Source: Sulfuriflexus mobilis (GTDB lineage Bacteria > Pseudomonadota > Gammaproteobacteria > AKS1). Taken from it: a stretch of 64,000 nt of DNA. Under the pieces are notes generated by a model. The model saw nothing but the letters and a program-made list of their open reading frames with translations, did no database searches and had not been told where the DNA came from. Positions within the stretch are counted from its first letter, which is position 1. Each line of letters opens with the position of its first letter. The stretch lies in the NCBI RefSeq assembly GCF_003967195.1, contig NZ_AP018725.1, positions 2,108,001 through 2,172,000 on the forward strand, written 5' to 3'. Positions 24,553 through 25,804 of the stretch are shown here, piece by piece. Both the position numbers and the translations under genes were made by a program.

Positions 24553-24637
24553 TGGTGCGGAAGGAGAGACTCGAACTCTCACGCCTCGCGGCACCAGAAC
24601 CTAAATCTGGCGTGTATACCAATTTCACCACTCCCGC
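24553..24637 (-). tRNA. tRNA-Leu (TAG)
   Basis: 85 bases with encoded CCA and the long class II variable arm. Acceptor GCGGGAG/CTTCCGC; anticodon loop TTTAGGT gives TAG. It is the last gene of the Pro-Arg-His-Lys-Leu cluster and lies about 70 bases before tig. Confidence 0.96.
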
Positions 24638-24760
24638 TGCGCTTGAGTCGGCCGAAAATACCCGGCAGCGCACTCTATTAGTATATCAGGCTCACAGTAG
24701 GCACGCATAACCCCTGTTTGCCCCGAACCCGGTTGCAAAACCGGACCCAGATACGACAAA

Positions 24761-24782
24761 GGGTTGCGGTAAGCCGCAACCC
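24761..24782 (-). terminator. Hairpin between tRNA-Lys and tRNA-Leu
   Basis: Perfect 9-bp stem GGGTTGCGG/CCGCAACCC with a four-base loop, followed on the minus strand by only TTTG. It could be a weak terminator or a processing signal within the tRNA cluster transcript. Confidence 0.45.
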
Positions 24783-24792
24783 TTCGGTTTCG

Positions 24793-24868
24793 TGGTGGGT
24801 CGTGACAGGTTCGAACTGTCGACCCGCGGATTAAGAGTCCGCTGCTCTACCAACTGAGCTAACGACCC
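24793..24868 (-). tRNA. tRNA-Lys (CTT)
   Basis: 76 bases with encoded CCA. Acceptor GGGTCGT/ACGACCC; anticodon stem GCGGA/TCCGC with loop CTCTTAA gives CTT. It is third or fourth in the cluster, about 80 bases after tRNA-His. Confidence 0.95.
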
Positions 24869-24947
24869 GAAACTCTTGCCTATGCTGCAATGGCAGGCGC
24901 GCATTGAAACATAGCCACCGGTTGGGTTCAATCCCAGAACCGGAATA

Positions 24948-25024
24948 TGGGGTGGACGATGGGGCTCGAACCCACGACAACCGGAATCACAATCCGGGAC
25001 TCTACCAACTGAGCTACGCCCACC
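24948..25024 (-). tRNA. tRNA-His (GTG)
   Basis: 77 bases including the extra G at position -1 (base 25024), which pairs with C73 as required for histidyl-tRNA, and encoded CCA. Anticodon loop TTGTGAT gives GTG. The spacer downstream of it (24918-24943) holds a hairpin, CCGGTT/AACCGG, whose top resembles a T-arm (GGGTTCAATCCC). Confidence 0.96.
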
Positions 25025-25057: not shown

Positions 25058-25414
25058 TGGCGCGCCCGGCAGGATTGATGCAGGCCCACGGCCTTCACCC
25101 TTCGGGCAGCGCTTCTCGCGCTGTCCAAACCGGCTTCACCGGTTTGTCGAACCTCGCCATATTATGACGCAGGTTCTCATCCCTCATGGATGATGTTTCC
25201 AGGCTAACCTGTCGTCATGCCTGGACAACCTAATATGGCGCGCCCGGCAGGATTGACTCAGGCCTCCGGCCTTCGCCCTTCAGGGCAGCGCTTCTCGCGC
25301 TGTCCAAACCGGCTCCACCGGTTTGTCGAACCTCACCATATTATGACGCAGGTTCTCATCCCTCATGGATGATGTTTCCAGGCTAACCTGACGTCATGCC
25401 TGGACAACCTAATA
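25058..25414 (-). repeat. Two tandem 178/179-bp units, each ending in the last 19 bases of tRNA-Arg
   Basis: The 19 bases at the 3' end of tRNA-Arg (AATCCTGCCGGGCGCGCCA on the minus strand, 25433-25415) recur exactly at 25254-25236 and 25076-25058. The units between them are nearly identical over their whole length. Each unit contains GAGGTTCGA, then a string of short GC hairpins (AAACCGG/CCGGTTT, CAGCGC/GCGCTG, GCCC/GGGC, GGCC/GGCC), then the 19-base tRNA end. Each also carries an inverted partial copy of the Arg T-arm (GCAGGTTC..ATCC on the plus strand, near 25169 and 25348). No protein is encoded. The units lie between tRNA-Arg and tRNA-His, inside the cluster transcript. Confidence 0.93.
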
Positions 25415-25491
25415 TGGCGCGCCCGGCAGGATTCGAACCTGCTACCCTCTGCTTAGAAGGCAGATGCTCTATCCGAATGAGCTACGGGCGC
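25415..25491 (-). tRNA. tRNA-Arg (TCT)
   Basis: 77 bases with encoded CCA. Acceptor GCGCCCG/CGGGCGC; anticodon loop CTTCTAA gives TCT. It is complete, but its last 19 bases (from the T-loop to CCA) are repeated twice downstream in tandem units. Confidence 0.96.
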
Positions 25492-25554
25492 ATAAACGGT
25501 GATTATACGCCTCATAGCGTCTGTCGTGCGACCAGCAGCAATACATATAGAATT

Positions 25555-25727
25555 TGGTCGGGGTAGAGAGATTACTCGCTGCGCTCGCCCCTTCGGGGCC
25601 GCCTGCGGCGTTCTGCGCACCTCCGGTGCTGGTCGAACTCGCCATATGACTTTCGTCGGGAGTTCAAATCTCTCTACACGGACCTCACCCACATTAGGCG
25701 TTAAACCAATTATCGGCGACCAAAATT
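25555..25727 (-). repeat. 173-bp unit ending in the last 19 bases of tRNA-Pro
   Basis: The last 19 bases of tRNA-Pro (AATCTCTCTACCCCGACCA, 25746-25728 on the minus strand) recur exactly at 25573-25555. The 154 bases between resemble the tRNA-Arg units: a shared segment GTCATATGGCGAGTTCGACC (compare GTCATAATATGGTGAGGTTCGAC), then serial short GC hairpins (CACC/GGTG, GCCGC/GCGGC, CCCC/GGGG). On the plus strand at 25656-25685 there is an inverted copy of the tRNA-Pro 3' end matching 27 of 30 bases. No protein is encoded. Confidence 0.92.
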
Positions 25728-25804
25728 TGGTCGGGGTAGAGAGATTCGAACTCCCGACATCCTGCTCCCAAAGCAGGCGCGCTACCAGACTGCGCTATAC
25801 CCCG
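25728..25804 (-). tRNA. tRNA-Pro (TGG)
   Basis: 77 bases with encoded CCA. Acceptor CGGGGTA/TACCCCG; anticodon loop TTTGGGA gives TGG. It is the first gene of the leftward tRNA cluster, with a strong promoter about 90 bases upstream. Its 3' end is duplicated downstream. Confidence 0.96.

Follow-up and report, generated by a model that had tools for sequence, protein, structure and literature searches.

tRNA-linked repeats of Sulfuriflexus mobilis and their probable origin as insertion scars of a palindromic DNA hairpin element

Introduction

The tRNA-linked repeats (TLR; named by Rudd 1999, as cited in PMC8144298), also called RtT, are known from E. coli and other enterobacteria, where they have been described as 3′ repeats. 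In E. coli K-12 there are 22 copies at ten loci, carrying 18-19-bp 3′ copies and having no known function (PMC8144298), a role of rtT in the stringent response having been retracted (PMC8144298). The 5S-linked TLRs rrA, rrB and rrF of E. coli are transcribed and processed, and in vitro they bind Hfq and CsrA via GGA motifs; the 19 TLRs of tRNA operons score below 0.01 for CsrA binding (PMC8144298). The RtT homologues of Actinobacillus pleuropneumoniae give Northern signals (PMC4986893). Sequences similar to rtT were noted earlier within BIMEs upstream of some enterobacterial genes, in passages that draw no connection to insertion in tRNA loops (PMC2965389). No paper tracing TLRs to a dispersed element inserted in tRNA loops was found in the literature searched.

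Short dispersed DNA palindromes form the other group for comparison. REP and REPIN elements and palindromes tagged with GTAG or CGTC (PMC3733652, PMC3116915) are non-coding and sometimes located within genes. The Rickettsia palindromic elements (RPE) are also palindromic and lie within protein genes, the likeness drawn here being one of description and not of sequence.

Here three units behind two tRNAs of Sulfuriflexus mobilis are compared with these systems. They probably represent insertion scars of a mobile palindromic DNA hairpin element, preserved at loci that retained an intact tRNA (probability about 0.7).

Three units in one tRNA cluster

The window, a stretch of 64,000 nucleotides of the S. 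mobilis genome, contains a tRNA cluster on the minus strand in the order Pro, Arg, His, Lys, Leu (ARAGORN), and all features below lie on that strand. The intact tRNA-Pro(tgg) at 25728..25804 (ARAGORN; Rfam 68.5 bits) is followed at its 3′ side by unit P (25555..25727, 173 bp), which ends in a copy of A58-A76 with CCA (25555..25573), the identity to tRNA-Pro continuing for 4 nt beyond CCA (AATT). The hairpin-chain core of unit P (ACCAGC...GCGAGT, 25574..25633) lies between a GAGTTCG copy and A58, and an antisense cap corresponding to the T-arm and 3′ end of tRNA-Pro is found at 25655..25684 as a 30-nt inverted repeat (I1), 90% complementary to 25729-25758. The intact tRNA-Arg(tct) at 25415..25491 (ARAGORN; Rfam 71.1 bits) is host to two tandem units, A1 (25236..25414, 179 bp) and A2 (25058..25235, 178 bp), A2 being 98% identical to A1 over 151 nt. 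Their cores occupy 25255..25326 (ACAAACCGG...CTGAGTC) and 25077..25147, their copies of tRNA-Arg A58-A76 occupy 25236..25254 and 25058..25076, and the antisense T-arm cap GGATGAGAACCTGCG, as read from the sequence, lies at 25347..25361 in A1, where it pairs with GGTTC as helix 1, and at 25168..25182 in A2. The tRNA-His, -Lys and -Leu genes of the cluster (24553..25023) are without units.

The preliminary description had reported one unit of this size range (173-179 bp) after tRNA-Pro and two in tandem after tRNA-Arg, each closing with a 19-base copy of the host, and this was borne out with 19/19 identity, CCA included, in all three. The base preceding the 19-nt block differs from G57 of the tRNA in all three window units. 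A likeness to RtT had also been proposed and was recovered by covariance comparison: Rfam RtT (RF00391), which was built without the window sequences, aligns over its full length (1-130/130) with A1, P and A2, ending at the CCA at 25236, 25555 and 25058, although the scores of 28.9, 22.8 and 22.2 bits are below the gathering score of 45, as is the best RtT score anywhere in the S. mobilis genome (39.6 bits). The same full-length alignment places the internal similarity of the Arg and Pro units above chance, as had been supposed. The R1 covariance model scores A1, A2 and P at 117.9, 110.9 and 66.5 bits, though it included the window's own units and the E-values of the models are rough, while the core-only model R2 scores the A1 and A2 cores at 58.7 and 52 bits.

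The window units lie directly 3′ of a tRNA in a tRNA operon in one or two copies, the location typical of TLRs, and are members of that known class. The view of the class as new is therefore withdrawn, given the naming by Rudd 1999 (as cited in PMC8144298). The E. coli TLRs are alike in that 18-19 bp from the 3′ end of the upstream tRNA or 5S rRNA are copied, in their unit size of 170-180 bp, in their tandem arrays and in their internal hairpins including CCCGAAGGG, and those at tyrT/tyrV, argV/Z/Q and rrnB have the same anatomy as the window units.

Anatomy of the unit and its hairpin core

The anatomy was derived from an alignment of sixteen units from five genomes together with E. coli tyrT/tyrV. 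The unit begins with a spacer, often with a terminator, followed by an antisense T-arm, the 5′ strand of the T-stem repeated as far as TTCG, a hairpin chain whose last bases are GAGT or GAGTC, and A58-A76. Because the alignment gives this plan, the core can be placed between G57 and A58 of a truncated tRNA copy, such that the unit, on the aligned sequences, is a truncated second tRNA copy with a 60-80-bp hairpin chain exactly at G57|A58. The element proper is the chain and not the whole 173-179-bp unit as initially described, the rest being spacer, partial tRNA copy and antisense T-arm, and the 19-bp block is part of the duplicated tRNA rather than of the element. The core has the layout ACAA - H1 - GAAC/GGAC - H2 - H3 with CCCGAAGGG - H4 - GAGT/GAGTC over approximately 60-80 bp (60-72 bp in the window units), and its stems show many compensatory changes among the aligned units.

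The break at G57|A58, which had been noted as common to both tRNAs and is indeed always at this position in them, gives exactly 19 nt of identity in 65 of 122 tRNA-linked matches and 18 nt in a further 15. The antisense segment matches its own tRNA at no fewer than 15 of 23 positions in 51/95 first units, compared with 1/95 after shuffling. In 38/95 units the tRNA and the core are separated by a hairpin resembling an intrinsic terminator.

Distribution across genomes

The R1 model identified units in 162 of the 370 gammaproteobacterial genomes sampled (134 of 272 genera), and a sample of the whole phylum added further genomes from other classes. The units are preceded by tRNAs for Ser, Arg, Pro, Tyr, Gln, Lys, Asp and Glu, which upholds the proposal of one family behind several tRNAs. 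A same-strand tRNA was present within 1.5 kb upstream in 122 of 150 R1 matches examined (82 sources). An independent scan of named genomes with an exact pattern yielded 84 matches, of which 60 follow a tRNA (35 at 19/19) and the other 24 lie mostly at contig ends or in tRNAs interrupted in the T-loop. Among the named hosts are Pectobacterium, Hafnia, Rheinheimera, Kangiella, Colwellia and Bowmanella. A pattern match in Planctomycetota (L225) sits in coding-like sequence and was taken as chance.

Elsewhere in the S. mobilis genome, units follow tRNA-Ser(gga), tRNA-Ser(gct) and tRNA-Arg(acg) (two) with a degenerate unit after tRNA-Glu, and nearly all copies found there are tRNA-linked. The tRNA-Ser(gct) unit (L122, 2528-2694) is itself broken up by a further small hairpin, ATAGAATCCCTTCGGGCTTCATTATGAG, inserted in it, and a second insert of this kind lies close by. 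In genome G007 (G007:C37; L018/L019) a tRNA-Arg(cct) that has lost its 5′ portion is followed by two units, an arrangement like that at the border of an integrated island.

Mirror-image units and copies away from tRNAs

Units were also found upstream of intact tRNAs, in which a promoter region and the 5′ part of the same tRNA are followed by the core breaking a loop. The broken loop is the T-loop at L067, L087, L073 and L135, the D-loop at the S. mobilis Ser(gct) locus (L122), L103 and L140, and the anticodon loop at L193, an apparently recent insertion in which the duplicated upstream sequence has hardly diverged. The insertion sites of these mirror-image units read G^AA.

The R2 model, built solely from tRNA-linked cores, was run on complete genomes and found cores away from tRNAs, in REPs and open reading frames of genomes other than that of S. 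mobilis. Seven cores lie within the REP GTCATTCCCGCGCAGGCGGG^AATCCAG in one genome (G365), and in another (G113; L174-L180) seven near-identical non-coding repeats of approximately 250-254 bp each enclose a core. In two further genomes (G126 and G116) core clusters lie in a region of defence genes and a region of phage-like genes, mostly within long open frames. In G126 one locus (L272, 1983-17519) has twelve cores, mostly in the open frames of a region with the defence genes PglZ, SNF2/ResIII helicase, DUF6079 and PIN, and several of the copies have a length divisible by three. The non-tRNA copies lie mostly at the G^AA target that is used in tRNAs, 19 of 24 of them being preceded by G. In these other genomes the core occurs as dispersed copies of one sequence with defined ends at unrelated sites, as is characteristic of mobile palindromes.

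Selected loci of E. coli K-12 were examined, and at rrnB a core lies between T1 and T2, at AGTAGG^(G)AACTG in a duplicate of the 5S end. It was a full-length match to the core model and the best of the search (L276, K-12 4171300-4172400, at 539-607; 41.2 bits). The rrnB T1-T2 terminator region is widely used in cloning vectors, many of which contain the element.

A much wider class, as suggested by the preliminary description, is supported, but it is not confined to the T-loop, with sites also in the D-loop, anticodon loop, 5S end, REPs and open reading frames. Compared with the known TLRs, the present set adds the 5′ units and D-loop and anticodon-loop sites, many other gammaproteobacteria, some other Pseudomonadota, and the cores away from tRNAs.

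Strain variation and genome-specific cores

The expectation that unit presence varies between strains was confirmed by a search for empty sites. E. coli genomes have 0-4 units at tyrT/tyrV, and in E. coli Z1323PEC0010 (L142) both tRNAs are without a unit, the first CCA running straight into the sequence that follows the units in K-12. Loss by recombination between the 19-bp repeats could leave the same exact empty site. An Arg(acg) locus without a unit in the same genus (L017) was not counted as an empty site, since the orientation of a neighbour differs.

The cores of units at different tRNAs of one genome have an identity of 0.58, compared with 0.44 for units at the same anticodon in other genomes and a background of 0.43, and a permutation test of core likeness gave p 0.0005 for genome and p 0.19 for tRNA type. 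The core follows the genome and the unit ends follow the tRNA. Within arrays the mean core identity is 0.76, indicating that arrays are homogenised, and gene conversion could account for the genome-specific cores. These observations lend themselves to an explanation without transposition, in which ectopic recombination or gene conversion at the T-arms, which offer short homology, would have spread an ancient unit from one tRNA gene to another, with arrays evolving in concert within each genome. That the same core is found at sites with no T-arm (REPs, open reading frames and the 254-bp repeat) and in D-loops and anticodon loops, and that the ends always match the host tRNA while the core is common, makes this explanation unlikely. 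Pure tandem duplication was rejected, as it cannot yield a core common to different tRNAs and REPs.

DNA-level or RNA-level pairing

The stems of 84 cores contain 1611 Watson-Crick pairs with 9 G.T and 8 A.C mismatches inside the stems, while the tRNA stems of the same loci, taken as a control, contain 50 G.T and 0 A.C (difference from the cores, p 4e-6). Selection at the RNA level would tolerate G.U, and since no excess of G.U is seen, the palindromes are preserved, or generated, at the DNA level, structural RNA being ruled out as the prime constraint. C(GNA)G triloops, which form unusually stable DNA hairpins, were found in 101 of 255 core loops and in 1 of 80 terminator loops. ANGGA, a CsrA-type motif, is present in many core loops, the stems being without an RNA-level signature. 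A function as a CsrA decoy was rejected, GGA loops being common but not universal.

These data bear on the possibility that the units are small-RNA genes, in which the chain is retained because it binds regulators, for instance CsrA or Hfq, after cleavage at the duplicated 3′ end has released it from the tRNA transcript. The ANGGA loops fit this, as do the transcription, processing and Hfq/CsrA binding of rrA, rrB and rrF (PMC8144298) and the Northern signals in A. pleuropneumoniae (PMC4986893). It is nonetheless rendered quite improbable by the lack of G.U excess, by the terminator-like hairpins that separate tRNA and core, by the E. coli strains without units and the cores in REPs and open reading frames elsewhere, and by the low CsrA scores of the tRNA-operon TLRs and the retracted stringent-response claim (PMC8144298). 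Some copies may nevertheless have an RNA role, given the 5S-linked E. coli TLRs (PMC8144298).

Proposed origin of the units

In the insertion-scar reading, a non-coding palindromic core would insert at G^AA, most often at G57/A58 of the tRNA T-loop. Because insertion would destroy the tRNA, the surviving loci would be those with an intact tRNA beside the interrupted copy, a tandem or partial duplication leaving one intact tRNA adjoining it. With the interrupted copy on the downstream side, its 5′ part would shrink to ...GGTTCG to give the classical TLR/RtT unit with an 18-19-nt 3′ copy, and with it on the upstream side the outcome would be a promoter and tRNA as far as the loop, the core and a short 3′ piece. 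The truncated side is commonly capped by an antisense version of that arm, a structure expected from a fold-back template switch during insertion, and tandem arrays would grow and shrink through recombination between the repeats. The chain would probably act as single-stranded DNA hairpins recognised in trans, by analogy with REP-type elements. The anatomy of the units, the target site, ends tied to the tRNA with cores tied to the genome, the dispersed copies, pairing at the DNA level and the variation between strains are observed, the transposition itself, an enzyme, the fold-back origin of the cap and the order of events are all inferred, and mobility is suggested by the distribution of the sequences.

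No moving copy was caught among the strains and genomes compared, and no autonomous core copy with a transposase was found, the 254-bp dispersed repeat common to L157 and L165 (G113) being too small. A Y1 transposase is present in 124 of 162 core-positive and 114 of 208 core-negative genomes (odds ratio 2.7), an association confounded by phylogeny and genome size. Like REPs, the core is a short, dispersed, non-coding DNA palindrome that sometimes lies within genes, and it is itself inserted in a GTCATTCC...GGAATCCAG palindrome. Unlike REP and REPIN elements, the core consists of 3-4 hairpins over 60-80 bp, its ends read ACAA and GAGT(C) with no GTAG or CGTC tag, and its target is G^AA, with a strong presence in tRNA loops.

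T-loop crossover and rebuilt tRNA 3′ ends are typical of tyrosine-integrase elements and, with the two units after the 5′-truncated tRNA-Arg at L018/L019, fit units that are satellite att sites of such islands or phages, an origin rejected as very improbable because the E. coli unit as query matched no phage except one 515-kb Salmonella record and only plasmids called non-mobilizable, chromosome-sized records among them, because insertions are also found in D-loops, anticodon loops, REPs and open reading frames, and because the 19-nt end changes with every host tRNA.

Implications for the TLR class

Since 1978 neither an origin nor an agreed function has been established for TLR/RtT, and the present analysis would add to the known class an origin, with the units as scars left by the insertion of a DNA hairpin element. 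The scar reading jointly explains why the copy is constantly 18-19 nt long and the break falls in the T-loop, why unit ends differ with the tRNA, why strains vary and why some copies are linked to 5S. In its broader form, the chances of which we put at about even, TLRs would be the tRNA-resident form of undescribed single-stranded DNA hairpin-chain transposable elements that target G^AA, have spread through much of the Gammaproteobacteria and are seen beside intact tRNAs by selection. Reading the units as scars allows the origin of TLRs to be tested by comparing strains and by looking for a mobilising protein.
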